From the IMG/VR virus record IMGVR_UViG_3300036850_000316, positions 1 through 36,777 of that record: a DNA stretch of 36,777 nucleotides; one strand, 5' to 3'. The position numbers were made by a program, and so were the translations under genes. Numbering within the stretch: the stretch's first letter is position 1; each line of letters opens with the position of its first letter. Positions 3,935 through 34,183 of this stretch are shown here, piece after piece. The notes under the pieces were generated by a model, which was not told the origin of the DNA, searched no databases, and saw only the letters and a program-made list of their open reading frames with translations. The stretch comes from a virus.

Positions 3935-3974
3935 GGCGAAACCTCCGGACGAACGGACGGGGGCCGAGCGGGCG

Positions 3975-4786: not shown

Positions 4787-4787
4787 G

Positions 4788-5213: not shown

Positions 5214-5215
5214 GG

Positions 5216-18548: not shown

Positions 18549-18646
18549 CCCTCACCACCTCCTCGAAAAAACGAGAAACTCGAAAACGGCCGGAAACATG
18601 GGCTGGACCGAGGAAGACTGCGGGCTGTCCAGACGACTCGCCGTTC
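18549..18646. other. A/T-rich spacer between HNH and DUF1508 genes
   Basis: About 98 bases without a gene, noticeably richer in A and T than its surroundings. On the minus strand CGAG-TTT-CTCG is followed by six T (18566-18582), which resembles an intrinsic terminator but has only a four-base-pair stem. It may be a late-operon control region. I see no convincing promoter hexamers. Confidence 0.3.
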
Positions 18647-18943
18647 CTAAAAGAACGCGGAGCCCTTCCGCGAGTTGCACGAACGATGCACGGCCCGGAG
18701 ATTCTTCGCGGTCCGCGCACCACCCCGCGCTACGGGATGCATGTGGTCGGCCGTGAACGGGTCGCCTCGCCGCCGCGGCTCGCCGCAGATCGCGCACACC
18801 TTCGCGCGCGACACCACCTCGCGAGCGAGCTTCCGGTAGGACCGGTCGTACGCTTCCCATCTGCCATGCGCTGCGCAACGCCCAGGCGTGCTCAGCAACA
18901 CGGGACAACCCGGTTCCAGACACGGCGTGAGCGAATGCCGCAC
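18647..18943 (-). CDS. HNH endonuclease upstream of terminase
   Basis: A 98-residue HNH nuclease: a first cysteine cluster (CLEPGCPVLL...CAAH), then CAIC, then the core DHMHPVARGG with the catalytic histidine, NLRAVHRSCNSRKG at the end. In HK97-like phages an HNH protein encoded beside the terminase is needed for DNA packaging and cleavage with the large subunit, and this position (immediately before small terminase) fits. GTG start at 18943, with a weak ribosome binding site. It differs from the larger HNH protein at 532 in length and context. Confidence 0.85.
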   Translation of the reverse strand: MRHSLTPCLEPGCPVLLSTPGRCAAHGRWEAYDRSYRKLAREVVSRAKVCAICGEPRRRGDPFTADHMHPVARGGARTAKNLRAVHRSCNSRKGSAFF

Positions 18944-18956
18944 GTCTCGCTCGCAA

Positions 18957-19934
18957 TCAGGCCGCGACGCCGGCGCCTTCGAGGATCTCGCGTCGGACGT
19001 GCTCGGCCACGGCGCGCATGAGCGGAGGAGGCACCCCGTTGCCGAGCTGCTTCCACTGCTGCTCGAAGTTGCCGACGAGTTCGAAGTCGTCGGGGAAGCC
19101 CATGATCCGCTTGCCCTCCTCGATCGACAAGCGTCGCGCCTCGGACCAGTGCATCAGCGCACCGAAGTAGGACGCGCGGATGGTCGGCGCCGGCTTGCGC
19201 GGGTCGAGCTTGCGGTGGTCCCAGTAACGGCTCCGTGTCCAGGCGAGGTCCGCCCCTCGCTGACCGTGGTTCGTCGTTGCCCACACCAGCCGCTCGACTT
19301 CGCTGAGGGGGCGCGGACAGAACGTGCGCGGCTCGACGTCGCGGAGCGCCACGCGCACCGGGATCGGCGGCTCCTGCGGGCGCGGATGCGAGGGTTCGGC
19401 ACCGACGTCGTCACGCACGCCGACGAAGATCACGCGCTCACGCGACTGCGCGACACCGAAGAACTTGGAGTTGAGGAGCCTGCACGAAACGCGGTAGCCC
19501 GAGCCTCGGAGCTCTTCCATGATCGACGGGAAGACCGTCTCGAACATCTTCCCCTTGACCAGGCCCGACACGTTCTCCATGACGAACGCGCGCGGTCGGA
19601 ACGCGCGCAGCAGACGCACGTACTCGACGTAGAGCTGATTGCGCGGGTCGGAGCTCCGCCTCTTGCCCGATGTCGAGAACCCCTGACACGGCGGACTTCC
19701 ATCCAGAACGTCGAGTCCACCCGGCTCGAGGTCCGCCATTCGCAACGCCTCCTCGTCCGACAGCTGTGCGATGTCGCCCTCGTGGATGGGCACGTCGGGG
19801 AAGTTGCTGCGGTAGGACGCCGCCGCGTGGCGGTCCCATTCCACGGCGAGCCGATCCTCATATCCCGCCAGCACGTAGCCGAGTGACGACCCGCCGCATC
19901 CCGCGAATGTCGAGACCACGGTCAGATGGTTCAA
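18957..19934 (-). CDS. DNA cytosine-5 methyltransferase 1
   Basis: A 325-residue C5-cytosine methyltransferase with all core motifs: motif I FAGCGGSSLG, motif IV SPPCQGFS with catalytic Cys83, motif VI ENVSG, motif VIII QSRERV and motif X GNGVPP. It transfers a methyl group from S-adenosylmethionine to cytosine. The target-recognition region (about 180-260) is short, and its sequence specificity cannot be read. The start is TTG at 19934, backed by AAGGAG about eight bases upstream; the frame open further upstream is antiphase to the ParB-like gene. It is next to the ParB-like gene with no restriction partner, so it is probably a self-protection or regulatory methylase of the phage. Confidence 0.9.
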   Translation of the reverse strand: MNHLTVVSTFAGCGGSSLGYVLAGYEDRLAVEWDRHAAASYRSNFPDVPIHEGDIAQLSDEEALRMADLEPGGLDVLDGSPPCQGFSTSGKRRSSDPRNQLYVEYVRLLRAFRPRAFVMENVSGLVKGKMFETVFPSIMEELRGSGYRVSCRLLNSKFFGVAQSRERVIFVGVRDDVGAEPSHPRPQEPPIPVRVALRDVEPRTFCPRPLSEVERLVWATTNHGQRGADLAWTRSRYWDHRKLDPRKPAPTIRASYFGALMHWSEARRLSIEEGKRIMGFPDDFELVGNFEQQWKQLGNGVPPPLMRAVAEHVRREILEGAGVAA

Positions 19935-19966
19935 GAGTGTTTCTCCTTCGGAGTCGCGACGCGTTT

Positions 19967-20551
19967 CTAGGGAACGAACTGCTCGCCGCACTTCGGACAC
20001 GTGACGATCCGCGCGTCGCGTTGGACGTCCGTGTCGTACTCGGGGAACTCGATCTCCTGGAGTCGGATCAACTCGCGGACCTCGTCGTCGGTCAGGCCGG
20101 TCGAGGCCAGCAGCTCGGATGCGTCCTCGAATCCCTCGAGGACGCCGGCCAGGCTCAGTCGATCCCAGTCGGCCTCCTCGGCCGTGCGGTTGTCGGCGAT
20201 CGCGTAGGCCGCGAGCTCCTCGTCGTCGAGCTCGACCCATCGGACCGGAACCTCGTCGAGGCCGAGGATCTCCACCGCCGCCCGAAGCCGCATGTGGCCG
20301 GCGGCGATCCGTCCGTCCGACCTCCGAGCCACGATCGGCGCCAGGAACCCGAAGCGCCGGATGGACTCGGCCACTTTCTCGAGACCCTCCTTGGAGATGG
20401 TCCGCGGGTTGGCCTCCCAACGCCGCAGCGCCGCAGCCGGGACGGTCTCCAGGTCGGCCGGGCCGTCTCCCATCCCCGAACGTCTGTTCGTGCCGCCCTG
20501 GGCCCCCTCAGGGGCCTCTCGTGAAGCCGTGGCGGCGACCTCAGACCCCAC
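19967..20551 (-). CDS. ParB/Srx-like nuclease-fold protein
   Basis: A 194-residue protein with a ParB N-terminal domain: NPRTISKEGLEKVAESIRRFG, PIVARRSDGRIAAGHMRLRAA, VPVRWVELDDEELAAYAIADNRTAE. The GxHxR segment (AAGHMRLRAA) is the nucleotide-binding signature of the fold. The C-terminus carries CPKCGEQFVP, half of a zinc ribbon. It lacks a central ParB DNA-binding helix-turn-helix, and there is no parA, so it is not a partition protein. Phage proteins of this type commonly sit beside methyltransferases. GTG at 20551 overlaps the HTH gene's end; an internal ATG at 20473 would remove 26 residues of low-complexity sequence. Confidence 0.78.
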   Translation of the reverse strand: MGSEVAATASREAPEGAQGGTNRRSGMGDGPADLETVPAAALRRWEANPRTISKEGLEKVAESIRRFGFLAPIVARRSDGRIAAGHMRLRAAVEILGLDEVPVRWVELDDEELAAYAIADNRTAEEADWDRLSLAGVLEGFEDASELLASTGLTDDEVRELIRLQEIEFPEYDTDVQRDARIVTCPKCGEQFVP

Positions 20552-20819
20552 AACGGATCACCTGGTCGGTTTGGCGAGCGGGATGAAGGATGCGTGGCGC
20601 CTTGCGCCATCGCCCGATCATGTCCTGGACGGTCGACCGAGCGAGGTCGAGATCCTCGGCTATCGCGCGCACCGACCAACCGCGCACGTGCAGCAGGATC
20701 ACGTTGCGCAGGACTGTGGCCGGGTCGGGACTCGAAGTGTCCGGGACATCGCGCGTTCCGGCACGCTCGCGCGGATCGTCGCGAATGTGTTTGCGCAGGT
20801 CGGATCTGTATGCGCCCAT
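20541..20819 (-). CDS. Small helix-turn-helix protein
   Basis: A 92-residue protein with one clear helix-turn-helix at about residues 45-70 (LLHVRGWSVRAIAEDLDLARSTVQDMIGRW), similar to the DNA-binding domains of small terminases and sigma-like regulators. The N-terminus is charged, the C-terminus basic. It is first in the block transcribed from the promoter candidate at 20874-20902, ahead of the ParB-like protein, methyltransferase and packaging genes, so it may control late expression or assist packaging. ATG at 20819 is chosen; a TTG three codons upstream is also open. Confidence 0.6.
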   Translation of the reverse strand: MGAYRSDLRKHIRDDPRERAGTRDVPDTSSPDPATVLRNVILLHVRGWSVRAIAEDLDLARSTVQDMIGRWRKAPRILHPARQTDQVIRCGV

Positions 20820-20873
20820 GAAATTCAAAGGCCGCCGGCGTTCCAGGGACGGAACTGTCCAGCGGCTAGCAAC

Positions 20874-20902
20874 ATATTACAGACGGAGCCGACATTCGTC
20901 AG
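20874..20902 (-). promoter_or_regulatory. Candidate promoter for the HTH-ParB-methyltransferase/late block
   Basis: On the minus strand, CTGACG (20902-20897) and TAATAT (20879-20874) are separated by exactly 17 bases, with TG directly before the -10 element. This is an A/T-rich island in a GC-rich genome, sits right after the Vsr stop and about 55 bases before the HTH gene start. The position and spacing fit a vegetative-type promoter. Confidence 0.4.
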
Positions 20903-20918
20903 GGGATGACGTCGGTCC

Positions 20919-21335
20919 TCACAACGAAGCAACTCGCCGGAGCTTGCGACGAGCTGCGGGCAAAGTGCGGACATGCAAGTCGTGCTCCCAAACCCGCACA
21001 ACACGTATTCCACGCAGACGAAGCTCGCGGCGTGCGATGCGATCTCTTTCCCTATTGCGCGCGAGCTTTGGTCCCCAAAACTCCGCATTGTCTTTCGGCG
21101 ACCGGCCGTGCTTTGGACATCCATGCCAAAAGCAACCATCGGCGAACAGCGCGAGCTTTAGGCCTGGAAGGTAATAGTCGGGGCGGCCTGGCAAGTCAGT
21201 CGCCTGCTCAACGACACGGCGTCGAGGGAAGACCTCTTTGATCAGAACCCCGAGGCGCTGCTCGGGCTTGGTGCCGGACGAACGGATCGCGGACATGTTG
21301 CGGCTGCGCTGTTCCCGGGTAAGCCAGTCAGGCAT
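20919..21335 (-). CDS. vsr: Very short patch repair endonuclease
   Basis: A 138-residue Vsr endonuclease: MSAIRSSGTKPEQRLG at the start, PGRPDYYLPGLKLALFADGCFWHGCPKH with the metal-binding Asp53 and the aromatic wedge, then NAEFWGPKLARNRERD. Vsr nicks DNA at T:G mismatches that result from deamination of 5-methylcytosine, so that the G-strand is used for repair. The gene lies nine bases after the restriction-endonuclease-like gene in the methyltransferase 2 operon, the standard Vsr context. Its base composition is lower in GC than the phage backbone (58% in a 60-base count at 21001), suggesting acquisition with the restriction-modification unit. Confidence 0.92.
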   Translation of the reverse strand: MPDWLTREQRSRNMSAIRSSGTKPEQRLGVLIKEVFPRRRVVEQATDLPGRPDYYLPGLKLALFADGCFWHGCPKHGRSPKDNAEFWGPKLARNRERDRIARRELRLRGIRVVRVWEHDLHVRTLPAARRKLRRVASL

Positions 21336-21345
21336 GGCGCGGACG

Positions 21346-22188
21346 TTACCAGTTGCCGGTGTCGTCGACGAGTTCCGCCAGCGTGAGGAGCCGCCCGTTC
21401 GCGCGGGCCTCCTGGAGTTCGGGTGAGACGATCCCGATCGCTTCCATCACCGGGAGATTGACGAGGGCCACGCCGTCCACGCAGTCGTCCTTGAGGAGCG
21501 CGACGATACGCGAACCGTCGTACTCGTGACAGACGACGTAGAAGCGGATCGACCCGGTCATACGGTGAGCTGTCGCCTTCACGATCGCGCACTCGTTGTT
21601 TGAGTTCGAGACGCGGTCCGTTCTCATGCTCCATTTGCAAGAGACGAGTGCGACCGGACGCGATCCGACACGCTCTACTGCCAGGACATCAGCCTTCGGC
21701 TGCTTCACATGCGGGATCGCGATGTTCGGCCAGTAGATAGTGAGGGGCTGCTCCTCCCGGTAGTCGAACCTCGCGTCGCCCCACTTCTGCATCACGTAGG
21801 CGGTGACGAACTTCAGCGCATTACCGGCAGGATTGGCCTTCTGGTTCCCGTTCTCGCAGTCCTCCCAGAACTCGTGGCGCCACATACGTCCGAGGAGATT
21901 CTTGACGTCATCGCGTGACTTGCCGAGCTGCAACGCGATGTACTCCTCGGCTGCCTCCGCGCGGACCTGCCACGTCCGGTCGTGGCGCGGCTCCGCAACC
22001 CTCTTGCCCTTCACCTTCGGTCGGGGATGCAGCTTGTCTGCATCGATGATGTGGAGGTAGCCGTGCTCGTACCACGACACGAGCTGGATGATCCCCAGCC
22101 AGGCCTCCTCGTTGTTGAGTTCCCCGGCTGGATAGGTCGCCGCTTCGAGCTCCGCGATAACCGCGGCCGTGAGTTCTGGGTTCGCCAC
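21346..22188 (-). CDS. Type II restriction endonuclease-like protein
   Basis: A 280-residue protein placed directly between a C5 methyltransferase and vsr, so it is almost certainly the restriction partner. The N-terminal half is helical with many aromatic residues (ATYPAGELNNEEAWLGIIQL). The catalytic core is visible at residues about 165-185: KQPKADVLAVERVGSRPVALVSCKWSMRTDR, i.e. an Asp followed by S-C-K, a PD-(D/E)xK variant in which the expected acidic residue before the lysine is replaced by Ser-Cys. This CKWSxRTDR element recurs in type II enzymes of several specificities, so the recognition site is not deducible. GTG start abuts the methyltransferase stop with no gap. Confidence 0.75.
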   Translation of the reverse strand: MANPELTAAVIAELEAATYPAGELNNEEAWLGIIQLVSWYEHGYLHIIDADKLHPRPKVKGKRVAEPRHDRTWQVRAEAAEEYIALQLGKSRDDVKNLLGRMWRHEFWEDCENGNQKANPAGNALKFVTAYVMQKWGDARFDYREEQPLTIYWPNIAIPHVKQPKADVLAVERVGSRPVALVSCKWSMRTDRVSNSNNECAIVKATAHRMTGSIRFYVVCHEYDGSRIVALLKDDCVDGVALVNLPVMEAIGIVSPELQEARANGRLLTLAELVDDTGNW

Positions 22189-23181
22189 CTACGCGACCTT
22201 CTCGTCGTCCCCCTCAAGCACTTCGCGAAGCTTAGTCGCGACGGCGGCGGCGACGGGCGGCGGGAACGCGTTGCCGACCTGCCGGTATGCGTTCGTCTTG
22301 CGCCCGGCAATCTCCCACGAGGACGGGAAGCCCTGGATGATGGCCGCCATCTGGACGGTGAGGCGAGGCATCCCGTGAAACCCTCTCGGAGGCGGAGCGT
22401 CCGCGAGCACGGCTCCGTCAACGCCGAGCCCGGCCCACGACTTTCGCGCGCGTGTCGGCCCAAGATCGGGTCCGCCGTGCTTCTTCGACCCGCCAACGAG
22501 CGTCGGACCGATTGCGTTCGCCTTCTTCGCCCACCGGTCGGCACCCTTCCACCCGGCGGACGCCATGGCGGCGTGGAGCGCTTCGCCGACGGTTGGCGGC
22601 GGCTTCGGCGATGGCTCCGGCCAGGCGAAGCGCGCAAAGGCGGCGGCGGGAAGCGCCACCATCAGCGCCCTCGGGCGCAGCTGCGGCACGCCGAAGTCGG
22701 ATGCATTCAGCTTGGCCCAGTCGGCCACGTATCCGAGCTTCGCGAACGCGGCTCGGATCTCGTTTCGGTAGCCGGAGAATCGCGCCTCGAGCAGGCCCGG
22801 AACGTTCTCGATGAACACGGCGCGCGGTTCGCACTCGCGCGCGATCCGGATCATCTCGGGAAACAGATCGCGTTCGTCGTCGGCGCCGAGGCGATGTCCG
22901 GCGACGGTGAAGGGCGGGCACGGCACGCCTCCGGCCAGAAGGTCAACGCGGCCGCATAGGCGGCGCGCGTCGAAGTCTCGAAGATCGGCGCGGACTACCG
23001 GCCATGCGGGGCGGTTCTGCTTGAGCGTCTGGCAGGCGACGTGCTCGATCTCGACGAGCGCCGCGTGATCGAAACCCGCCTCCTCGAGGCCGAGCGCCTG
23101 ACCACCGGCGCCCGCACACAACTCGAGGCTCGTTAACAACCTGCGCTCCCCTTCGTTCGTGTCGATCGTCGGCGCCACCAT
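22189..23181 (-). CDS. DNA cytosine-5 methyltransferase 2 (restriction-modification pair)
   Basis: A 330-residue C5 methyltransferase: motif I LELCAGAGGQALGL, motif IV GGVPCPPF with catalytic Cys88 (a PCPPF variant rather than PPCQGF), motif VI FIENVPGL, motif VIII QLRPRA and motif X GNAFPPP. It modifies a cytosine in the recognition site of the adjacent endonuclease and protects host and prophage DNA. Start ATG at 23181 follows a GGGTGG ribosome binding site. It is transcribed divergently from the HerA operon across 182 bases. Operon order methyltransferase-endonuclease-vsr makes the pair functional on paper; target specificity cannot be read. Confidence 0.9.
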   Translation of the reverse strand: MVAPTIDTNEGERRLLTSLELCAGAGGQALGLEEAGFDHAALVEIEHVACQTLKQNRPAWPVVRADLRDFDARRLCGRVDLLAGGVPCPPFTVAGHRLGADDERDLFPEMIRIARECEPRAVFIENVPGLLEARFSGYRNEIRAAFAKLGYVADWAKLNASDFGVPQLRPRALMVALPAAAFARFAWPEPSPKPPPTVGEALHAAMASAGWKGADRWAKKANAIGPTLVGGSKKHGGPDLGPTRARKSWAGLGVDGAVLADAPPPRGFHGMPRLTVQMAAIIQGFPSSWEIAGRKTNAYRQVGNAFPPPVAAAVATKLREVLEGDDEKVA

Positions 23182-23363
23182 GCCACCCGGCGCTGACTGA
23201 ATGAAGCAACCGACGCAAGACGGCGTCGGCGTCGGTCCTGGCGGTTATCGTGATGCGCCTCCTCGAGGCGGACCTTTCTGCGGTGTGAATGGTGGACCGT
23301 GTCAGTGGGCTGTAGTAGCTTTTAACCGTTCACCGGTTAGAGGTTAACGAGGAGGTAGAGGAG
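23182..23363. promoter_or_regulatory. Divergent control region with inverted repeats before herA
   Basis: The region between methyltransferase 2 and herA contains a 6-bp inverted repeat TAACCG/CGGTTA (23323-23339) and a wider TTAACC...GGTTAA pair ending at 23347, overlapping the probable herA promoter or leader. A second hairpin, CGCCTC/GAGGCG, lies at 23256-23270. A weak -35/-10 combination (TGGACC, 17 bases, TAGCTT) precedes the repeats on the plus strand. A strong GGAGG lies upstream of the herA ATG. An operator for a regulator not identified here is plausible. Confidence 0.4.
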
Positions 23364-25031
23364 ATGGCAGAGCCCGAACGGTCCGAAGAGGCAGCGAAGG
23401 AAGAGCCGGTCGTCGAGGAGTCCGTCGCCCTCGAGGCGGTGGAGGTCGTCTCCGGAGTGGAGTACCCGCCGGGGCTGGTGGGAAGGATCGTCAGCACGGA
23501 GGCGTCGCCTTCGTTCGAGACGCTGCAGTTCCGGCTCATCGCCGCCCAGAACGCGTCGCCCGGGAAGCTCGTCGCGGTGGAGGCCGAGGACGACGACGGC
23601 CGGCGCGTCCAGGTGCTCGCCCGCGTCGACAACGTGCACGAGGTCAATCCTCATGAGGACGCGCTGAGCTCGACGCTGCGCGAGGTCCTGCCCTTCGACA
23701 CCAAGTACGCGGCGGAGGGGAGCTCGACGGTGATCTACCGCCTGGCGGTGTGCGAGCCGCTCGAGGAGGCCGTCGTCGGCGAGGACGGCGCCGTCGAGGA
23801 GATCCGCGCCGTGCAGACACTCCCCCGCGCCGGCGCGGCGGTGTTCGAGGCAGGTCCGGATCTCACGGTGGCCGCGCTCGGCCTCGAGCGGGACCCGGAC
23901 GCCGGGCTGCACATCGGCTGCTCGTACGGCGACCCGGACCTCCCGATCATCCTCAAGAAGGAGACGATCCAGCGGCACATGCTAATCGTCGGCGGGATCG
24001 GCGCCGGGAAGAGCTACACGCGCGGCGTCCTCGCCGAGGAGCTGCACGCGTGGGGCATCCCCCAGGTGAACCTCGACGTGAACGGCGAGCTGATCGAGGC
24101 CGCCACCGAGCTCGGCGGCCAGAACCTCGTTCCCGGACAGAGCGGCTTCACCATCCCGGTGAGCGCGCTTTCGTCGGCGGACGTGCTCGAGGCGGTGCCG
24201 AGCATCAACCCGGGCACGAACATGGAGACGCTCCTTCGCTTCGCGCACGAGAACATGCAGAAGCAGATCCTTCAGGGAAAGCGGAACTTCTTCACGGTCG
24301 ACGAGCTCGTCGACCACATCGAGCACTGCGCGTTCGTGCTCGAGATGACGACCGGGAAGGGCGACGAGAAGAAGCCCGACGCCCGCACGGTCGAACCGAC
24401 GAAGCTGCGGACGCAGAGCCTGAACAGAATCCCGTTCCTCGGCGCCCCATACGACTGGAAGGCCGCGCTTCAGCCCGGGGCGGTCATCAACATCGATTGC
24501 CGCGGACTGATCCTCTCCGACCTCCGCCTGATCGCGGCTTCCGTCGCACGAGACCTCCAGGGCCTGGCGCGCAACGGCGAACTCCCCTTCGTGGTCCTGT
24601 CGATCGACGAGTTCCACCTCGTCGCGCCGAACAACGACCAGGTCGTCACGACCCAGGTCCTGCGGGAGATCGCGAGGATCGGACGGCACTACAAGCTCGG
24701 CCTCGTGCTGACGACGCAGAGCCCGAGCGACGTCGATCGCGCCATCCTCAAGCGCCTGCTCACCCGCTTCCTGCACGCCATCGAGCCCGACCAGCTCGAC
24801 GCCCTGCGCGGGGTGTTCTCCGATGCGTCCGACAGCTTGGTCCGCGCGATGCCCAAGCTGCCTCAGGGCGTGTGCGTCGTGACCGGCGCGTTCGAGACGG
24901 TGCGCCACGCGACCGTCGTCCGCGTGCGCACGCGCGGGACGACGCACGGCGGCAAGACGCCCGACATCTTCACCGAGATCGCTGAGTCCGGATGGCCGGG
25001 CAAGCGGCCGAGGACGGAACGGACGGGCTGA
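23364..25031 (+). CDS. herA: HerA-type AAA ATPase
   Basis: A 555-residue HerA/FtsK-superfamily ATPase. Residues 30-200 contain the beta-barrel (HAS-barrel-like) N-terminal domain; the motor begins at 205 with Walker A GGIGAGKS (210-217), followed by LNLDVNGELI-type hydrophobic strand (the text is QVNLDVNGEL), Walker B FVVLSIDEFHL with Asp415-Glu416, sensor TTQSP and the C-terminal helix QGVCVVTGAFETVRHA. HerA forms hexameric DNA translocases that partner a nuclease. The partner here is the next gene, starting one base after the stop. ATG start with GGAGG upstream, plus strand, opposite to all neighbours. It is not a packaging ATPase: terminase is elsewhere. Confidence 0.88.
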   Translation: MAEPERSEEAAKEEPVVEESVALEAVEVVSGVEYPPGLVGRIVSTEASPSFETLQFRLIAAQNASPGKLVAVEAEDDDGRRVQVLARVDNVHEVNPHEDALSSTLREVLPFDTKYAAEGSSTVIYRLAVCEPLEEAVVGEDGAVEEIRAVQTLPRAGAAVFEAGPDLTVAALGLERDPDAGLHIGCSYGDPDLPIILKKETIQRHMLIVGGIGAGKSYTRGVLAEELHAWGIPQVNLDVNGELIEAATELGGQNLVPGQSGFTIPVSALSSADVLEAVPSINPGTNMETLLRFAHENMQKQILQGKRNFFTVDELVDHIEHCAFVLEMTTGKGDEKKPDARTVEPTKLRTQSLNRIPFLGAPYDWKAALQPGAVINIDCRGLILSDLRLIAASVARDLQGLARNGELPFVVLSIDEFHLVAPNNDQVVTTQVLREIARIGRHYKLGLVLTTQSPSDVDRAILKRLLTRFLHAIEPDQLDALRGVFSDASDSLVRAMPKLPQGVCVVTGAFETVRHATVVRVRTRGTTHGGKTPDIFTEIAESGWPGKRPRTERTG

Positions 25032-25032
25032 C

Positions 25033-27162
25033 GTGACCGACCGCCGCACGAGCGTCGAGGATCGCGAACGGGCGATCTTCCGCTACCTCGCCGACGTCGG
25101 CAACGGTGGAGCGACGGCGCGCGACATCTGGGAGACGGTCGGCCAGAAGCTCGCCGACTCCGTCACGCCGCAGGCGTACTACAAGGTGCTGGACCGTCTC
25201 GTCGCCGTCGGGAAGCTCGATGTCCTCGACGACGACCCCGCCGGCGGACGTCGTTACGCCGTCACGCCGTACCTGCACGTCGACACCGCCCTCACGCTGG
25301 ACGACGTCTACGAGCTCCTCGACTGGATGGAGCCGACCGAGGCGATCGCCCGGGTCGTCGACGCGCGCGACTACTTCGAGGAGAAGCGCGCGGACACGCT
25401 CGCCGCGGCGGCTCGCGCCTTGCTCGAGGAGGACCCGCGCGAGCTCGTGTTCGCGTTCGTGGCGCAGCGGTTCCGAGAACTGCAGACCGACGTCGAGATG
25501 TACCGCGACAAGGAGCTCGCCGAACGCGACCTGCTCAGCAGAATCCAGGTGCAGTTCAAGGAGTTCCAGGTGCTCGTCTACCGCTGGCTCGGCCTGTCGC
25601 GTTCGGCGGTGGACGCCGCGCACCGGGACTCGATCATCAGCGGCGACGCCGACCTTCTGCTGGACGAGGCGGTGCTCCGGCGCGAGCTCGACGCGCGCAT
25701 CTTCGGGGACCGGTGCATCATGCCGATCGACGCGAAGAAGGTTCTCGCGTCGGACGAGTGGAAGAGGACGAGCGTCTCCGGCAGCGACGGAAGCACGCAC
25801 GCGAGCGTGATGCAGGTGGTCACGGCCAGCCATTTCGTCGAGGACGCCGGCCATCAGGTCGTAACGTTCAACAACAGCGTCGTGTACATCGAACCGGCAC
25901 CGTCGATCAAGGACAGGATCTCGTTCCCGTACTACAGCGTCCCCATGACGCGCAGCGCCATCGACGACGCGACCAACCGGGGCATGGTGCTCGCGCCGTT
26001 CATGTTCCGCTACCTCAGCGACTCGGAGTATCAGCACATGGCGCACTGCGCGACCGACGTCGTGCAGTGGCGCGCGGACGAGGCGGTGTTCCTCGGGACC
26101 GGCCGTTCGTGGGCGGACGGGACACTGCTCCCCAAGCCGACGATCCACATCCGCGACGGCACCATCGTTCCCGAGGAGCGCGAGTACAAGCACTACCGCA
26201 CCGCCAACCCCTACGGCGACATGGTCCGCGAAGGCATCGGCCACAGCCGCAAGATCCTCGAACGGATCGTCTCCACCGACACTCCGCCGGTGTTCGCCGG
26301 CGCGGTCAAGAGCACGCGCGTCCGCTTCTTCTCCTCGCTCCTGAACTGGTACATCTCGATCGGGTCGCGGTCGAGACTCGGCGAGCCGATCGATCCTCAG
26401 TGGGACACCACGAGGGCTGCGCACATCGCGGACAACGAGGCGATGAGCTATCTGCTGTCTACGCTCGAGGGGGAACGCCGCGACGGCCTGTACTACGTGA
26501 CCTTCGGCGTCGTGCGCACCTTTCACACGTTCACGGAGTACTTCGCTCGTCCGAAGGACGACTCCTTCGACTGGGTCGACTTCTTCGAGCAGATCCGCGA
26601 GCGCGAGGCCACCGCCTACCGTGACGACATCGATCCTGATCCGCCGTACCTGGCGAGCGTTCCCGACGTCGCCGACGACGACTTCGTCTTCCTCACGAGG
26701 AAGGCCGACTACGTGTCGTTCTACATCGGACACACCGGCTCCGAGCCGCCGCCCGTCGCTCCCCGCTACGAGTTCCTGGAGAGCCTTCGGTCCATGCCGA
26801 CGCTCGAGGCGAAGCGCGCGCGGGTCAGGCGCAACCAGGAACTCCTCGTCGGCGGCATCCACCGAACCGGTCTGTCGGCCGACACGGAGCACAACTTCCT
26901 GTCGCAGAAGCGACTCGTGAAGCTCATCCCCTTCGTCGTGTACGAGGCACACGAGAAGTGCAAGGCGCTCGGCAAGAAGCTCGAGTCGGAGCTGAAGTCC
27001 TTCGTGATCGCGCACCTGCAGGCCCTGCGTCGCGCTCGCGCGCCTCGCCCGAGCGACGTCGAGTTCCGTCCTGCTCCCCTGCGGACCTTCATCGAGCAGC
27101 GGCGGATCGTCCAAGAGGACCGCGAGGACCGCGAGGAAGACGTCGGACGAAACGAGCGGTGA
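25033..27162 (+). CDS. Winged-helix plus NurA-like nuclease, HerA partner
   Basis: A 709-residue protein. Residues 8-80 form a winged helix (ERAIFRYLADVGNGGATARD...YKVLDRLVAVGKLD). After a helical linker, residues 240-660 resemble NurA nucleases: SGSDGSTHASV with candidate catalytic Asp252, an acidic pair near 349-350, the VFAGAVKSTRV strand, and the C-terminal IPFVVYEAHEKC with His640, matching NurA's conserved aromatic-Ala-His segment. NurA acts with HerA as a DNA end-processing nuclease-translocase. The N-terminal winged helix is an addition not found in plain NurA and could provide target recognition. GTG start one base after herA. It ends four bases before the end of the facing methyltransferase 3. 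The nuclease call is by pattern only. Confidence 0.62.
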   Translation: MTDRRTSVEDRERAIFRYLADVGNGGATARDIWETVGQKLADSVTPQAYYKVLDRLVAVGKLDVLDDDPAGGRRYAVTPYLHVDTALTLDDVYELLDWMEPTEAIARVVDARDYFEEKRADTLAAAARALLEEDPRELVFAFVAQRFRELQTDVEMYRDKELAERDLLSRIQVQFKEFQVLVYRWLGLSRSAVDAAHRDSIISGDADLLLDEAVLRRELDARIFGDRCIMPIDAKKVLASDEWKRTSVSGSDGSTHASVMQVVTASHFVEDAGHQVVTFNNSVVYIEPAPSIKDRISFPYYSVPMTRSAIDDATNRGMVLAPFMFRYLSDSEYQHMAHCATDVVQWRADEAVFLGTGRSWADGTLLPKPTIHIRDGTIVPEEREYKHYRTANPYGDMVREGIGHSRKILERIVSTDTPPVFAGAVKSTRVRFFSSLLNWYISIGSRSRLGEPIDPQWDTTRAAHIADNEAMSYLLSTLEGERRDGLYYVTFGVVRTFHTFTEYFARPKDDSFDWVDFFEQIREREATAYRDDIDPDPPYLASVPDVADDDFVFLTRKADYVSFYIGHTGSEPPPVAPRYEFLESLRSMPTLEAKRARVRRNQELLVGGIHRTGLSADTEHNFLSQKRLVKLIPFVVYEAHEKCKALGKKLESELKSFVIAHLQALRRARAPRPSDVEFRPAPLRTFIEQRRIVQEDREDREEDVGRNER

Positions 27163-27166
27163 TCAG

Positions 27167-28291
27167 TCAGCGCGGGTCTGCAGCGGACCCGACGTCGAAC
27201 AGGGTGCCCGGGTCGGAGGAGGCGCTCGCGCGGAGGGTCGACGCCGGCTGCGACAGGTGATCGCGAAGCGATCTCCCGGCCGTCTCGGCGAGCACCGGCG
27301 GGACCGCGTTCCCGATCAGTGTCGCGATGACCTCCTGCGTGCCCTCGAAGCGAAAGTCGTCGGGGAAGGTCTGCAGCCGAGCACCTTCCCGAAGGGTGAT
27401 GTTGCGGTGCTCGGAAGGATGACCGAAGCGACCGCGGGTGAAGCTGTCGAACCGCGCCGTGATCGTGCCGGCCGGGCGATCGGGAGCGAGCCGTCCGTAG
27501 ACGTACCTGTGTCCGATCTTCTCGGCACCGTTCTTGTGGCAGTCCACGCGAAGCTCGGCGGGCAGGTCCTCGAATCCTCCTCCGGGCGGGATCAGTCGCA
27601 GGCGTTCGACGTTCGTCGCGGACAGCCTCGTGCGGCGGTGGAGGACGTCGTTGGGGGCCGGACTGTGATCGTCAGGCGGAGACGGAAGATCGCCGATGAC
27701 CTCGTGCACGGTGACCGCGCAACCGACATGGGTTCGCGACGGGAGGTCGAACCGAGGAAGGTCGTGCCTCCGCCATCCCCACAGCAGCGCCCGCCGACGG
27801 TTCTGCGGCACGCCGTAGTCCGCCGCGTTGACGACCAGTGACATCGTCTCGTAGCCGGCCTCGCGGAGCATCAGCTCGAAGCGCTGCGAGATGGCGAGCC
27901 CGCGCTTGCCAAGCAGTCCCGGGACGTTCTCCATGAAGTACATCCGCGGAGCGGCATGGATCACGTGCTCAGCGAACCTGAGGACGAGGTCGTTGCGCAC
28001 GTCATCGTCGCTGCCGATGCGCTGCACGGAGAACCCTGCGCACGGCGGAGCTCCTGCGACGAGGTCGATCTCGCCAGGCTCGACGCCGATCGCGCGCATG
28101 AGCGACGCGGGATCGATGACAGCCAGGTCTGCGCGCAGGAACGGGTGATCGAAGTTTCGCGCGTAGGTCCGCGCGGCCGCGTCCCAGTTGTCGACGCCGG
28201 CGACGAGCCGGAACCCGGCCCGGCTGAGACCCAGCGAGAGTCCGCCTGCTCCGCAGAACAGATCGATCGCCGTCGGCGTGTTCTGGGTCAC
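27167..28291 (-). CDS. DNA cytosine-5 methyltransferase 3
   Basis: A 374-residue C5 methyltransferase: motif I DLFCGAGGLSLGL, motif IV GAPPCAGFS with catalytic Cys84, motif VI FMENVPGL, motif VIII PQNRRRALL and motif X GNAVPP. It is the second gene of a tandem methyltransferase pair, coupled by a GTGA overlap with methyltransferase 4, and converges on the NurA-like gene with only four bases between the stops. No dedicated type II endonuclease is adjacent; the facing HerA/NurA-like operon is the obvious candidate nuclease. The GTG start at 28291 is fixed by the overlap; the open frame continuing to 29197 is antiphase to methyltransferase 4. Confidence 0.9.
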   Translation of the reverse strand: MTQNTPTAIDLFCGAGGLSLGLSRAGFRLVAGVDNWDAAARTYARNFDHPFLRADLAVIDPASLMRAIGVEPGEIDLVAGAPPCAGFSVQRIGSDDDVRNDLVLRFAEHVIHAAPRMYFMENVPGLLGKRGLAISQRFELMLREAGYETMSLVVNAADYGVPQNRRRALLWGWRRHDLPRFDLPSRTHVGCAVTVHEVIGDLPSPPDDHSPAPNDVLHRRTRLSATNVERLRLIPPGGGFEDLPAELRVDCHKNGAEKIGHRYVYGRLAPDRPAGTITARFDSFTRGRFGHPSEHRNITLREGARLQTFPDDFRFEGTQEVIATLIGNAVPPVLAETAGRSLRDHLSQPASTLRASASSDPGTLFDVGSAADPR

Positions 28292-29793
28292 GCCGTCCCC
28301 GAGACGATTCGATGTCCGGCCTTCAGCGCCGGGATGAGTCGTGAAAAGGAAGACGTGACGGGGCCCTCGATGCCCGGACGGAACGACTCCATGCCCGACT
28401 CGGGAAACGCGAGCCGGCCGAGCGTGTAGAGAGCGAGCCAGGCGGAGAACGCGGGGGGGACGGCGTTGCCGATCTGCCTGAACTGGTCGATCATCCCGCC
28501 CTCGAACTCGTACGACTTCGGGAAGCCCTGCAGCAGCGCCGCCTCGCGCACGGTGAGCCCGCGATGCTGCTCGGGGTGAACGAACCGACCGCTCGCCGGA
28601 TTGCGGGCGTGCGCCGTGATGGTGACCGCGGCCCGGTCCCAGAAGAGCCGGCCGTAGATGTCGGGATACGGCGGGTGTCCTCCCTGGCGTCGCTCGAGTC
28701 GTGCGCGGCACTTCGGTCCTGCACCGGCGGGAAGGCTCCCGCCGTCGGACGGCACGGACCGGATGGTGTCGAGGGTGGACTTCTTGTGGTCGGCGCAATA
28801 GTGCATGGGGTCTTCTTCGTCGCGCTTGCCCGGCCGGACGCGTGGCAGCGTCCCGATCGCCTCGCGGACGCTGCGGAAGTCCTCGCGTTCGACCGGCCCG
28901 CGCGGCGGCGCGAACGGCCGCTTGAAGGCCACGAGTACCATCCGGAATCGCTCCTGAGGCACGCCGTACGCCGCCATGTTCTCCACGCTGACATGAACGC
29001 TGTAGCCGCAGTCGACGAGTGTCCGGCGGGCCTCCGACAGATACGGCCAGTACTTCGTCGTCACGAGTTCGGGAACGTTCTCCATCACGATGGCGTCGGG
29101 CCGAAGAGCCTTCGCGACGTTCGCCATGTCGATGAACAGCGAATTGCGAGGGTCGGATTTGCCGGCCTCGTTCCTGTGCGACGCGAACCCCTGACACGGC
29201 ACGCAGCCGATGAGAACGAGCGGATGACCGCTGCGTCGGCGCGACGACTTCACCAGTTTGCGAAGGCGATTGGGTTGCTTCGCGAGCAGCGAGACGTCCT
29301 CCAGCACAGGAGCAAGACCGAGGTTCTTCTCGAACGTCTTGTTCGCGACAGGATCTGTGTCGATGGCGAGCGCGAGTCTGTACGCCGGGAAGATCGAGTT
29401 GACCGCCTTGAATCCCGCAGACACTCCACCCGCTCCGCTGAACACATCGATGACGTCGATAGGTCCGTCGTCAGCGACGTTCGGCCACTGCGAATCGAGA
29501 TTCAGCGACAGCCATGCCGCGAGCCGCGTCGCGGCGTCGACAGCATCGGCACCTTCAGGAAGTTGGTCGTCGAGTCGCCGCACGGCAACGCCTGCCCGTC
29601 GCTTGACGAGCCGGAGTGCGTGTGTGTGTTCCGAGATCTTCGAGTCGCCCACGATGACACCTTGCGCTATTTCTACCGTGCCGGGTCCGATGAGGTGTTG
29701 GCCCCGCCTCACACGGGCCTCGGAGGGCGGCCTGGGAGGCCGTTGCGCCGCGGCTGAGCAGCAGCTCTTCGGCCCGGAAGAGCGGCAGGTCAC
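28288..29793 (-). CDS. DNA cytosine-5 methyltransferase 4 with N-terminal extension
   Basis: A 501-residue C5 methyltransferase. The catalytic part starts at motif I DVFSGAGGVSAGF (117-129), with motif IV IGCVPCQGFASH and catalytic Cys200, motif VI VMENVPEL, motif VIII PQERFRMVLV and motif X GNAVPP. About 110 residues precede motif I: cysteine/arginine-rich at first, then a VEIAQGVIVGDSKISEHTHAL stretch, not a known domain to me. The region between motifs VIII and IX is long, as expected for a target-recognition domain. GTG start at 29793 has AGGAGG in front and overlaps the stop of the small helical gene upstream. The tandem pair could methylate the two strands of an asymmetric site, or two different sites. 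Confidence 0.88.
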   Translation of the reverse strand: MTCRSSGPKSCCSAAAQRPPRPPSEARVRRGQHLIGPGTVEIAQGVIVGDSKISEHTHALRLVKRRAGVAVRRLDDQLPEGADAVDAATRLAAWLSLNLDSQWPNVADDGPIDVIDVFSGAGGVSAGFKAVNSIFPAYRLALAIDTDPVANKTFEKNLGLAPVLEDVSLLAKQPNRLRKLVKSSRRRSGHPLVLIGCVPCQGFASHRNEAGKSDPRNSLFIDMANVAKALRPDAIVMENVPELVTTKYWPYLSEARRTLVDCGYSVHVSVENMAAYGVPQERFRMVLVAFKRPFAPPRGPVEREDFRSVREAIGTLPRVRPGKRDEEDPMHYCADHKKSTLDTIRSVPSDGGSLPAGAGPKCRARLERRQGGHPPYPDIYGRLFWDRAAVTITAHARNPASGRFVHPEQHRGLTVREAALLQGFPKSYEFEGGMIDQFRQIGNAVPPAFSAWLALYTLGRLAFPESGMESFRPGIEGPVTSSFSRLIPALKAGHRIVSGTA

Positions 29794-30062
29794 GTGATCT
29801 CCTCCTGAGACACGACGCGCTGCAGGCCGACTCGGATCTCGTCGAGACGGTCGACGGCGCCGAGCGGTCCTCCTCCGGTTCCTCCACCGCCCTCACCGAC
29901 TCGGCGCGTGCTCGCGCCTGCGACGATTCGATTCGCGAGCGCCCGAGCTTCGCCGCGCAGCCGGACGAGAAGATCCTCGACGTACGCGAGCGTGTCCGCC
30001 GCGGACGGATCGATGTCGCGGATCGTGACCACCGCATCAGACTCTCCGCGTCGACGCGGCAC
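29790..30062 (-). CDS. Small helical protein coupled to methyltransferase pair
   Basis: A 90-residue protein of unknown function. Residues 15-48 are helical with heptad-like leucines (ADTLAYVEDLLVRLRGEARAL, NRIVAG), then a glycine-rich linker (VGEGGGGTGGGPLG) and a second helix (VDRLDEIRVGLQRVVSQEE). Two helices joined by a flexible linker suggest a hairpin coiled coil or an oligomerising adaptor. It overlaps the start of methyltransferase 4 by four bases (GTGA), so it may be an accessory part of that module. It follows the HTH gene by two bases, so it could equally belong to the early operon. Confidence 0.5.
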   Translation of the reverse strand: MPRRRGESDAVVTIRDIDPSAADTLAYVEDLLVRLRGEARALANRIVAGASTRRVGEGGGGTGGGPLGAVDRLDEIRVGLQRVVSQEEIT

Positions 30063-30064
30063 GT

Positions 30065-30565
30065 TCAGGTCCCGATCGCTTTCTTCGAGGCGAGCTGTTC
30101 GATGAGCTCTCGGGCTCTGCTCTTGCCGTTGTTCTTCTTCGCGGCGTTTACGCCCGGTTCTATATGGACGGTTCTAAGGACGGTTCCTCGGCCACGGGTG
30201 TCCGCATCTGGCTGACGCACTTGTCCGGTTCTGCGGTCGATCGTGTCCGGTATTGAGAGCTCTTCGGGAATAGCGGACACCTTGGCCGCTTCTACGATCG
30301 GCAAGATCCAGTACAGGTGCGACCGGCGGCGCTTCCCCTTGCCGCCATGCTCGAGCCAGCGCAGCTCGCCGAGGTCGTGAAGTTCCTCGATCGACCGCCG
30401 GACGGTGCGCGTCGAGCAGCCCGCCTCGGACGCGATCGTTGACTGCGAAGGGAATGCGCTGCGGCCGTGCTTGTCGGCATGGTTGGCGATCGAGATCAGG
30501 ACGAGCCGCGCGTTGCCCTCGCTGCGCGAATGCTCGAGGACCCAGGAGATGGCCTGGACGCTCAC
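30065..30565 (-). CDS. Helix-turn-helix replication-initiator-like protein
   Basis: A 166-residue protein with an HTH_36-type winged helix: VSVQAISWVLEHSRSEGNAR, LVLISIANHADKHGRSAFPS, QSTIASEAGCSTRTVRRSIE, ELRWLEHGGKGKRRRSHLYW. This is the N-terminal domain of many phage replication initiators and replication-module regulators; the C-terminal part here is basic and low-complexity, with no helicase or primase domain. It is likely an origin-binding or replisome-recruiting protein, with host enzymes doing the rest. GTG start overlaps the rusA stop (GTGA), in the recombination/replication operon. Confidence 0.72.
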   Translation of the reverse strand: MSVQAISWVLEHSRSEGNARLVLISIANHADKHGRSAFPSQSTIASEAGCSTRTVRRSIEELHDLGELRWLEHGGKGKRRRSHLYWILPIVEAAKVSAIPEELSIPDTIDRRTGQVRQPDADTRGRGTVLRTVHIEPGVNAAKKNNGKSRARELIEQLASKKAIGT

Positions 30566-30918
30566 GCGATCGCCTCGACGACGACTTCGGCACGGGGTTT
30601 GCCGTCGCGTCGGACGACGTAGGCGTGGAGCTCGAGGACCTGGCGATCGTCCGCGAAAGCAGCACGTCGCATGCCGTCGAGGACCGTCTTGCACAGGTTG
30701 TCGACATCGCCCCTCGCGCCGAAGAAGCGCACGTCGACGCGCACGGGTCCACGGATCGCCCCGCCGGCCTTCTTCCTCGCCTGCAGCGCGACGAAGTGGA
30801 CCAACTCCTCGTAGGCTCTCGTCGCATCGGGCGTGTAGACGCGCGGCTTCCGCCCGCGGGTGTCGACGCGCGGGCGGCCCTTCGGCTGCGGCGTGCCCTC
30901 AACGACGAACGCGATCAC
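30562..30918 (-). CDS. rusA: RusA-like Holliday junction resolvase
   Basis: A 118-residue member of the RusA family: VEGTPQPKGRPRV at the start, then FFGARGDVDNLCKTVLDGM with Asp71, Asp73, Lys77 and Asp81, and AFADDRQV with Asp90/Asp91. These acidic residues and the lysine form the metal site that nicks four-way junctions symmetrically. In the phage it resolves recombination intermediates and concatemers before packaging. GTG start; GTGA overlap with the gene before. It works together with the single-strand annealing protein two genes upstream. Confidence 0.88.
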   Translation of the reverse strand: MIAFVVEGTPQPKGRPRVDTRGRKPRVYTPDATRAYEELVHFVALQARKKAGGAIRGPVRVDVRFFGARGDVDNLCKTVLDGMRRAAFADDRQVLELHAYVVRRDGKPRAEVVVEAIA

Positions 30919-31121
30919 AAGCCGAGGTCGCCCTGCTCGCCGGGAGGCTTGCCCTTGCGCGCGGCGACGGCCTCGTCCATGTGTCGCTTGCAGAGACGGC
31001 GGAGCGTGAACACGTGCGGCCGGTCAGATCCGTCGGCGCGCCGGTATTCGAGGCGCTCGTGGTACTGCTCGTACGGGCTGTCGACCCGGTGCGGTCCGAC
31101 CTCGCACACGAAGCCCCTCAC
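30915..31121 (-). CDS. Small unknown protein of recombination operon
   Basis: A 68-residue protein (VRGFVCEVGPHRVDSPYEQY...HVFTLRRLCKRHMDEAVAARKG). Two cysteines and histidines (C-E-V-G-P-H; C-K-R-H) could form a small zinc-binding site, giving a compact basic domain that may bind DNA. Function is unknown. It is fixed in frame by GTGA overlaps with the annealing protein upstream and rusA downstream, which argues it is a true gene of the early operon and not an artefact. Confidence 0.55.
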   Translation of the reverse strand: MRGFVCEVGPHRVDSPYEQYHERLEYRRADGSDRPHVFTLRRLCKRHMDEAVAARKGKPPGEQGDLGL

Positions 31122-31861
31122 GCCTTCGCGTCCTGCGCACCCATGAGCCGCGACGCGAGCTCGTCGAGGCGTTCGTCGGCTGCCGTGGTGAGGAAGTCGA
31201 TGAGCTCGGAGGCCTGGGCCTTCGTGACCTTGGACAGGTGCCCTTCGGACTCCGGCCACTTGGACGCGACGATCGCGCGCATGAACTCCTCGCCGACCTC
31301 GCGCTCCTTGCACGTCGCATGGATCTTGCCGATCTGCGCTTTGCTCGCGGCACCGCTCCCGTTGCTCGCGCCGGCCCCGGAAACTTGTTTACCGCGGGTC
31401 GAGACGGACGCTGAGTCGGCATCGGAGTGTTTCCGCCAGAGCTCGAGCGCGACGCCGAAACGCATCGCTGCGTTGCGGATCGCGTCGCCGATCAGCTCCT
31501 TCGTCGGCTCGGTCTTGCCGGCCTCGACGGTCCCGTAACCCAGGCGCGTGACGCCGGACACGGTGAGCTTGATCCAGAGCCCGACGGGACGGCCCTTGTC
31601 ATCGACGTCGAGAAGCGGGCGCCCGTCTTCCATCCACGCGACCGGCTCCCACATCCACGCGGGGTCGGCATCGAGGAGCCGCTCGGTGACGGCTGCGTGA
31701 CCGACGTAGTCGAGATGGATGCGCGCCGGCTCGTGGAAGCCGCCGCAGATGTCGCAGCGCGACTTCGGCTGCTCCTTGTTGATCCCCTTCGGCAGCTTGT
31801 CGATCGCTCCATCGGGAAACGCTTCGCGGAGCTTCGTGAGGGCGGCGTCGCGGTCGTTCAC
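31118..31861 (-). CDS. Rad52-like single-strand annealing protein
   Basis: A 247-residue protein with the core of Rad52-type phage recombinases: YVGHAAVTERLLDADPAWMW, WMEDGRPLLDVDDKGRPVGL, LTVSGVTRLGYGTVE, then ELIGDAIRNAAMRFGVALELW. The C-terminal part is a Ser/Gly linker and an alpha-helical domain (ASKAQIGKIHATCKEREVGEEF...SKWPESEGHLSK) typical of partner-binding tails. It pairs complementary single strands during phage recombination and repair. GTG start at 31861 and GTGA overlaps on both sides fix the frame. Family assignment is by pattern; the exact clan (Rad52, Erf or Sak3) is uncertain. Confidence 0.65.
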   Translation of the reverse strand: MNDRDAALTKLREAFPDGAIDKLPKGINKEQPKSRCDICGGFHEPARIHLDYVGHAAVTERLLDADPAWMWEPVAWMEDGRPLLDVDDKGRPVGLWIKLTVSGVTRLGYGTVEAGKTEPTKELIGDAIRNAAMRFGVALELWRKHSDADSASVSTRGKQVSGAGASNGSGAASKAQIGKIHATCKEREVGEEFMRAIVASKWPESEGHLSKVTKAQASELIDFLTTAADERLDELASRLMGAQDAKA

Positions 31862-32763: not shown

Positions 32764-33438
32764 ATGGTCGGCGACAGAGTGGAAGGGACGCGGTCCTTGG
32801 GGAAGGGCTGGCGTGTGGCCATATGCGAGCCGGACGCGCTCACCAGGCGTGCCATCGAGAACATCTTCGAGAACGCGGGGTTCGTCGTGATGTCGGCGGC
32901 GGACATCGGCGACCTCGAGGGACGGATGCCCGACAAGAAGAAGGGGTCGCCGCCGCCGGTGATCGTCACCGACGCCGGCTGCGTGAAGGGGTGGCTCGCC
33001 GAGGAGCTCTTCCGCAGGCGGCGCGTTGGGTCGGTGATCCTGATGGCCGAGCCCGAGGAGGGACTGCTCGAGCAGGTGGCGCGGGCGAAGAACCCGCCGT
33101 GCGCCGTGCTGCTGCGCTCGGAGACCGACCCGGACCAACTCCCCGAGATCGTGCGCCTCGTCGGCCGCGGCTACAGTCTCACCTCGCCTGGGATCACCGC
33201 GGCCCGAACCGTGCTGAACGCCCGCGTGGCGCTGTCGGCGCGCGAGAAGCAGATCGTGAAGCTCGTCGCGCAAGGCTTGACGAACGCGCAGATCGCGGAG
33301 CGACTATCGGTGTCGATGCACACGGCGAAGGAGCACGTCGCGACGATCCTCCGCAAGCAGGGCCTGCGGCGGCGGATCGATCTCGCCGCATGGGCGCATG
33401 AGCACGGCATCGCGAACGGAGGAGGAAGGAACGAATGA
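32764..33438 (+). CDS. LuxR/NarL-type regulator with degenerate receiver domain
   Basis: A 224-residue regulator. Residues about 15-140 have the alternating pattern of a response-regulator receiver domain (WRVAICEPDALTRRAIENIFE, PPVIVTDAGC, VGSVILMAE), retaining the Asp of the phospho-acceptor position but lacking the conserved Thr/Ser (MAE instead) and the final Lys (RSE instead). Residues 155-215 form a LuxR helix-turn-helix (LSAREKQIVKLVAQGLTNAQIAERLSVSMHTAKEHVATIL). It is divergent from the early operon, the place of a lysogeny repressor or switch regulator. ATG at 32764 has an AAAGGA close by; a GTG at 32704 is possible but overlaps the palindrome. Confidence 0.8.
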   Translation: MVGDRVEGTRSLGKGWRVAICEPDALTRRAIENIFENAGFVVMSAADIGDLEGRMPDKKKGSPPPVIVTDAGCVKGWLAEELFRRRRVGSVILMAEPEEGLLEQVARAKNPPCAVLLRSETDPDQLPEIVRLVGRGYSLTSPGITAARTVLNARVALSAREKQIVKLVAQGLTNAQIAERLSVSMHTAKEHVATILRKQGLRRRIDLAAWAHEHGIANGGGRNE

Positions 33439-33932
33439 CACTCGCTGCGCATGCGCCGCTCGACGACGCATTCATCGTGGCCAAGCTGCTCGAGGATCAC
33501 GACGACGACACGATCTTCCGCATCAATTGGGTCGCCTTCTGCGCACTGATGCGGACCATCGGTCACGTTCTCGACAAAGTCGACGGTGCGCAGTCAGCTC
33601 ATCGTCGAGAAGTAGTCGACAGGCGTTGGGTGGAATGGAAGTCGCACCGCGATCAGCACTCGATCTTCTGGGAGTTCATCGAGGATGAACGCAACGCGAT
33701 CCTGAAGGAGTACGAGTTCGGTTACCAGCAGGGCGACGTCTGGGTCGGCGTCGAAGGGCCCGACGGATACGAGACCCATCGCCTCGACGCGGGCGTGTAT
33801 CGGCCGATGCTCTCCGACCGCTTCGTAGGCGAAGACGCACGCGACATCGCACAAGAAGCGCTTCAGTGGTGGCGTCACGAGCTGAGCGTGATTGAAAGGG
33901 AGCTCTCAGGGATGCGTGAGCGGTCGGAGTGA
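33435..33932 (+). CDS. Unknown acidic protein coupled to the regulator
   Basis: A 165-residue, mostly helical, acidic and tryptophan-rich protein (LDDAFIVAKLLEDHDDDTIF, VEWKSHRDQHSIFWEFIEDE, WVGVEGPDGYETHRL, ALQWWRHELSVIEREL). I do not recognise it. Its ATG overlaps the regulator stop (ATGA), so the two are co-translated; it could be a co-regulator, an effector of the lysogeny switch, or an immunity gene expressed in the prophage. Plus-strand orientation makes it one of the few genes likely expressed during lysogeny. Confidence 0.5.
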   Translation: MTLAAHAPLDDAFIVAKLLEDHDDDTIFRINWVAFCALMRTIGHVLDKVDGAQSAHRREVVDRRWVEWKSHRDQHSIFWEFIEDERNAILKEYEFGYQQGDVWVGVEGPDGYETHRLDAGVYRPMLSDRFVGEDARDIAQEALQWWRHELSVIERELSGMRERSE

Positions 33933-34183
33933 GCCTGTCAGACTTCCCGAAGTCGGCAGCGAGGATCTCCGAGGGGTTCTGCCCGCTCTGCGACCGCCGG
34001 ATGAACGACCACGCGTTCTGCGTGCCGTGCGACGTCGGCTGGGCTCTCGAGGGGAGCGGAGCTCATACCGCGGGCGACGACGTCCAGGTCCTCGGCTCGG
34101 CCGGGGTTCTGGTCGTCGCCTCGAGGCGGCTCACGGCCGACGAGATCAAACGACTGTACGCGCGGCCTTCTCGGCTGCCTTAG
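33929..34183 (+). CDS. Small zinc-ribbon-like protein
   Basis: An 84-residue protein. CPLC and CVPC, thirteen residues apart, with a histidine between (DRRMNDHAFC), form a zinc-ribbon-like site. The remainder is a beta-rich segment (DDVQVLGSAGVLVVASR) and a helix. GTG start overlaps the preceding stop (GTGA). Function unknown; its stop overlaps that of the convergent nuclease gene by three bases. Third gene of the plus-strand lysogeny-side operon. Confidence 0.5.
   Translation: MSLSDFPKSAARISEGFCPLCDRRMNDHAFCVPCDVGWALEGSGAHTAGDDVQVLGSAGVLVVASRRLTADEIKRLYARPSRLP

Follow-up and report, generated by a model that had tools for sequence, protein, structure and literature searches.

A phage-borne HerA ATPase paired with a divergent, enlarged NurA-like protein beside C5 methyltransferases: a candidate restriction-like module

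The window, by which we mean the whole stretch of DNA analysed, is a viral record of 36,777 bp with 68% G+C and the standard gene set of a temperate siphophage. The minus strand holds most of the phage genes, while the plus strand carries herA (g32), g33 and otherwise only a small group of genes at 32764–34183. A single nucleotide separates herA from g33 (stop at 25031, GTG start at 25033), and the two genes converge on a pair of C5 cytosine DNA methyltransferase genes, g34 and g35, with 4 bases between the stops of g33 and g34. g35 and g34 overlap by the sequence GTGA at 28288–28291 and are translationally coupled. An initial annotation had described these four genes, and its coordinates, spacings and overlap all proved exact; absent from it were the status of the locus as phage cargo and a restriction endonuclease (REase)/C5 methyltransferase pair immediately to the left (21346–23181). 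No sigma-70 consensus promoter was found in the intergenic region between g31 and herA (23182–23363). The features are listed in Table 1.

Table 1. Positions of the herA–g33 locus, its neighbours and phage landmarks in the window
Feature	Coordinates	Strand	Size	Remarks
TerL	16310–17776			
C5 methyltransferase g27 with ParB-like g28	18957–20473			g27 is the fourth C5 methyltransferase of the window; the two genes lie a short way upstream of the terminase genes
Putative NgoMIV/Cfr10I-like REase g30	21346–22188	-		Motif SCKWSMRTDR..NNE read in the sequence
C5 cytosine DNA methyltransferase g31	22189–23181	-		PF00145, E value 4.6e-61; divergent from herA
Divergent intergenic region g31/herA	23182–23363			Strong Shine-Dalgarno (GAGGAGGTAGAGGAG) before herA
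HerA-family hexameric translocase ATPase g32	23364–25031	+	555 aa	
Predicted divergent, enlarged NurA-family nuclease g33	25033–27162	+	709 aa	
C5 cytosine DNA methyltransferase g34	27167–28291	-	374 aa	PC, ENV and GVPQ motifs present
C5 cytosine DNA methyltransferase g35	28288–29793	-	501 aa	Start may be 29712
Integrase	34959–36116			

Comparison with L004, the nearest phage relative found (TerL 67% identical), indicated how the locus is placed in the phage genome. The interval from the putative replication initiator to the g26 homologue is about 1 kb long in L004 (6494–7455), whereas the matching interval in the window (18548–30065) spans 11.5 kb, within which the HerA/g33 pair is accompanied by four C5 methyltransferases, a ParB-like protein and one resembling restriction endonucleases. 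The block is thus accessory cargo. The early region of L004 (1960–3819) encodes an ATPase that, as read from its sequence, looks like HerA/DUF87 and bears repeated C-terminal winged-helix-like segments. Elsewhere in the window, a RusA-like resolvase and a single-strand annealing protein (SSAP; g40, phrog_3290) are encoded at 30562–31861, with no evident partner exonuclease, and the gene adjoining the integrase gene (34180–34947) joins a DUF7669 domain to the C-terminal endonuclease domain of NucS.

HerA-like proteins are annotated as terminases in PHROG 2666 and in Blautia phage Montmirail. A role for g32 as a packaging motor was rejected because TerS, TerL, the portal and the major capsid protein are all encoded by the phage itself. 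As for Montmirail (ON453898.1, 8953–10020), the HerA-like ATPase labelled as terminase large subunit, as in PHROG 2666, either is misannotated or shows that a tailed phage can use a packaging motor of the HerA type.

The product of g32 matches the Pfam models for the HerA central domain (DUF87, E value 4.5e-14) and HerA_C (E value 4.8e-11), and its best PDB match is Sulfolobus HerA (4D2I, E value 3.8e-10), bearing out the herA-type ATPase originally proposed. The central domain, together with Walker A (GGIGAGKS, K216) and Walker B (SIDEFH, D415/E416) motifs that are intact and conserved in the one relative of the pair (L002, described below), places g32 in the HerA branch of the HerA/FtsK superfamily. 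The N-terminus is HAS-barrel-like, and the best plasmid matches are HerAs from haloarchaeal Mre11-Rad50-NurA-HerA operons.

g33 returned no family match in Pfam, NCBIfam, PADLOC or PHROGs. Searched against Pfam NurA (PF09376), it gave no match at E <= 10, and scores against NurA in hhalign and hmmsearch were not significant, the hhalign comparison resting on a two-row g33 alignment (Neff 1.4). Its likeness to NurA emerged at the level of motifs. When true NurAs from haloarchaeal plasmids and Actinomycetota genomes were aligned with g33 and its L002 homologue, unguided MAFFT brought NurA motifs I–VI into register, namely DGS (D252), DGT (D375), AGAVK, D-N-E..LL..GER, FY….R-x-E and P..VYEAHE (MAFFT was run in three modes, with motif V misplaced by one). 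In g33, these correspond to D252-G-S, D375-G-T, G423-A-V-K426, D467..LL..GER482, FY564..R578-E580 and P633..E638-A-H-E. Across a 27-sequence alignment, D252, G253, D375, R578 and P633 were invariant, and in the unguided alignments D252 and D375 fell on the invariant NurA aspartates of motif I (DGS) and motif II (DG(S/T/P)), the former being essential in Thermococcus kodakarensis NurA (D49A) (PMC12977600). Not one of 20,000 column shuffles attained the motif-chain score of the two g33 homologues, and 7 of 5,000 attained that of g33 as a single sequence; the NurA-like motifs noted in the initial annotation are real. These motifs indicate that g33 is a very divergent, enlarged NurA-family protein, assigned at motif level; as it has neither a PF09376 match nor a significant profile score, we refer to it as NurA-like or a divergent NurA. 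The NurA family would then reach well beyond detection by current profiles.

The predicted layout of g33 comprises a winged helix (~aa 8–77), a helical linker (~85–215) and the NurA core (~225–709). AF2 models, in which an RNase H-like fold was sought from a 2-sequence alignment, were poor for both the whole protein and the core (pLDDT 36 and 34, respectively) because there are too few homologues. The profile and structure searches that the initial annotation had suggested for both plus-strand proteins were, therefore, positive for HerA but yielded neither a NurA profile match nor a good model for g33. Within the poor whole-protein model, the N-terminal ~80 residues reached a local pLDDT of 57–74, and Foldseek matched them to winged-helix proteins (e.g. 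69 columns at 2.1 Å); no sequence profile supports a winged helix here. On the strength of the local model and these matches, we identify the extra N-terminal region as a winged helix, as previously suggested, with moderate confidence.

Both g34 and g35 match PF00145 (E values 4e-54 and 3e-51, respectively), in keeping with the two C5 methyltransferases recognised at the outset. Their nearest relatives are single methyltransferases in unrelated contexts, and the gene contexts of their plasmid relatives were uninformative. HgaI, as cited in PMC12898733, has two C5 methyltransferases, one for each strand of its asymmetric site, and by analogy g34 and g35, lying side by side, may each methylate one strand of an asymmetric site. 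PADLOC returned only generic HerA, mad8 and methyltransferase models for the locus, with none for g33, and the component set of no known defence system was complete.

The only relative of the HerA/g33 pair that we found lies on a 5.8-kb contig from an Egibacteraceae MAG (L002), in which a C5 methyltransferase (381–1607), HerA (from 1696) and a g33 homologue (3339–5501) follow one another on one strand. Identity to the window proteins is 51% for HerA and 47–48% for the g33 homologue. The L002 HerA frame is broken once or twice at ~2980-3330, with the next frame continuing the protein, which is probably a MAG assembly error. The single L002 methyltransferase shares only 28–29% identity with g34 and g35 and groups with neither; as the methyltransferase tree joined it with g27 via long branches, we take from this tree only that it is not orthologous to g34/g35. 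The four-gene co-occurrence raised in the initial annotation was thus borne out for a HerA/NurA-like pair beside a C5 methyltransferase, but not for g34 and g35 themselves, suggesting that the HerA/NurA-like pair is the conserved unit and that its methyltransferase partner varies or is incidental. L002 was also the only further member among GTDB contigs and in profile searches of ~425 Actinomycetota genomes, and none was found in IMG/VR with g33 and HerA patterns, in phages or in plasmids; short back-translated patterns such as these may overlook distant relatives. That two members are known limits the weight of their co-occurrence.

Among 33 loci with recognisable NurA and HerA, NurA precedes HerA in every case, both being on one strand, whereas the order is reversed, HerA then NurA-like, in both the window and L002 (2/2). 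Likewise, a C5 methyltransferase adjoins the HerA/NurA-like pair in both members (2/2) and was present in 0/33 canonical loci within stretches of 4.5–18 kb. This difference has a chance probability of 1/595 if the loci are independent; we regard it as moderate evidence, as independence among the loci is incomplete, the stretch lengths vary and the cargo of this phage is methyltransferase-rich. It bears on the possibility of chance clustering in a cargo hotspot, whereby the methyltransferases would be orphan anti-restriction genes and HerA–NurA a stand-alone defence or repair pair. Such clustering would fit the ~11-kb block, which brings together a ParB-like gene and four C5 methyltransferases from separate lineages, as well as the solitary relatives of g34 and g35, but is harder to square with the methyltransferase adjacency in both members, and we consider it decidedly unlikely.

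Many canonical NurA-HerA pairs adjoin Mre11-Rad50 repair genes, which the window pair does not. A minority of the canonical-order pairs sit with modification or restriction genes. In one Actinomycetota genome (G132; L081 8066-15777 and L096 624-3590), NurA and HerA are followed by a UvrD/PD-(D/E)XK helicase-nuclease, an N6/N4 methyltransferase and a type III Res (ResIII) protein, so that the pair is contiguous with type III restriction–modification genes. In a second case (G186; L020 6017-12999), a divergent NurA of 453 aa and its HerA are flanked on one side by genes for an HNH nuclease and a type I HsdR and on the other by a UPF0236-family gene. A third (G099; L084 7280-11599) consists of a NurA–HerA–TGT/DpdA-like gene run, in which NurA-HerA is possibly partnered with a deazaguanine base-modification enzyme.

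Taken together, we tentatively interpret the locus as a prophage restriction-like module in which HerA–NurA destroys unmethylated DNA while methylated self DNA is spared, a reading to which we give slightly less than an even chance. The identity of both subunits, their retained catalytic motifs, the operon arrangement, the phage cargo status and the C5 methyltransferase adjacency in both members can all be read from the sequences. Building on these, we infer that the two proteins form a complex in which the HerA ring would pump double-stranded DNA into a dimer of the unusually large NurA-like nuclease, which would unwind and cut it. The winged helix of g33 may bind DNA and help to load or direct the complex. 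The C5 methyltransferases, presumably g34 and g35 and possibly g31, would mark host and prophage DNA, and incoming unmarked DNA would be degraded.

Consistent with this restriction-like module, the HerA and NurA-like genes are linked in both members, and NurA-HerA recurs beside modification or restriction genes (ICETh1, G132, G186). Expression from the prophage would fit both the insertion of the cargo relative to L004 and the transcription of the pair opposite to the phage replication and structural genes. On the other hand, g34 and g35 are not in an operon with herA-g33, and their adjacency is partly to be expected in phage cargo with four C5 methyltransferases. The original proposal, in which the methyltransferases mark self and the HerA/NurA-like pair destroys unmarked DNA, is thus partly supported as a whole.

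Known NurA-HerA works from DNA ends, and circular dsDNA is not a substrate that NurA cuts (PMC12977600); another enzyme may thus have to make the first cut. The neighbouring g30/g31 pair could supply this cut. Matches of g30 in the libraries were below threshold (PF09015, 17 bits; PADLOC REase_II, 15 bits); judging from these and from its sequence motif, it is probably a type II restriction endonuclease, with g31 its probable partner methyltransferase. The two form a complete-looking type II restriction–modification (R-M) pair directly upstream of, and divergent from, herA. HerA-NurA could then be the shredder of this system, with g30 cutting unmodified DNA, g31 protecting self, HerA-NurA degrading processively from the g30 ends and g34/g35 being separate. 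The position of the pair and the requirement of HerA-NurA for ends would agree with such a role, as would the type IIG enzyme of ICETh1, which shares a transcript with NurA and TdtA, the HerA-like protein (PMC5365140). Nevertheless, the 5.8-kb L002 contig shows no REase gene and has its methyltransferase immediately ahead of herA, though it stops nearby and is too short to reveal a REase; given this and the sub-threshold scores of g30, we judge the shredder role to be unlikely.

A dependence on ends would also suit a phage recombination or end-resection device feeding the SSAP g40, with the methyltransferases as unrelated anti-restriction genes. Canonical NurA-HerA resects ends (PMC9960219, PMC12977600), and the phage encodes an SSAP and a RusA-like resolvase with no obvious partner exonuclease. 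However, the pair lies on the strand opposite to the replication and recombination genes, is absent from the corresponding L004 interval, has no match among the searched IMG/VR and phage records and has a sole relative that adjoins a C5 methyltransferase. We therefore consider a recombination device improbable.

A bolder form of the restriction-like module would be a new ATP-dependent restriction class, in which the HerA ring and winged-helix NurA directly recognise unmethylated asymmetric sites and degrade the DNA, one C5 methyltransferase protects each strand and temperate phages spread the system as superinfection immunity. This version is doubtful. If the restriction-like reading is true, a DNA-repair translocase–nuclease would have been turned into a phage-carried restriction enzyme with its DNA-reading domain within the nuclease, and the theme of HerA/FtsK capture would be extended to NurA. 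It would also explain why some NurA–HerA pairs are found among modification or restriction genes (ICETh1, G132, G186) and not beside Mre11–Rad50.

Several known systems resemble the window pair in part. Two-component anti-phage systems of HerA and an effector nuclease reportedly pair a HerA-type ATPase with a single nuclease, as in the window; their nuclease is said to belong to a family other than that of g33, with no methyltransferase requirement. In the canonical NurA-HerA end-resection complex (Pyrococcus, Sulfolobus, Deinococcus), as in the window, the gene for a HerA-family hexameric translocase is linked to one whose product bears all six NurA motifs, catalytic aspartates included. The window pair differs in its reversed order, in a nuclease of 709 aa as opposed to ~340-430 in most NurAs compared, in the predicted winged helix and insertions of g33 and in being phage-borne and flanked by C5 methyltransferases in place of Mre11-Rad50.

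The tdtA operon of ICETh1 from Thermus thermophilus (type IIG enzyme, NurA-like protein, HerA-like TdtA and N4/N6 methyltransferase) likewise belongs to a mobile element and unites a restriction enzyme and a DNA methyltransferase with NurA and an ATPase of HerA-like type; it acts in DNA donation (transjugation) and was not tested there as defence (PMC5365140, PMC7767461). A comparable set is contiguous in the window (the REase-like g30, g31, HerA and g33) but in a different order. In ICETh1, NurA lies upstream of the ATPase, the methyltransferase is of the amino type and not C5, and no winged helix is described. The HerA/FtsK capture systems, including DndFGH and BREX-related capture, similarly combine a translocase, a nuclease and a wHTH proposed to intercept invader DNA; however, they rely on other nucleases (REase, PglZ) and are partnered by Orc/Cdc6 or DndFG, which the window locus lacks, and the accounts of them make no mention of NurA (PMC10853773, PMC12839542). 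HgaI-type R-M systems also have two adjacent C5 methyltransferases but a dedicated type IIS endonuclease, where the adjacent candidate in the window is HerA-NurA. The association of HerA-NurA with modification or restriction genes is, therefore, an already known theme (ICETh1, G132); what is new in the window is the reversed order, the enlarged nuclease with its predicted winged helix, methyltransferases of the C5 instead of the amino type and the presence of the locus in a phage.
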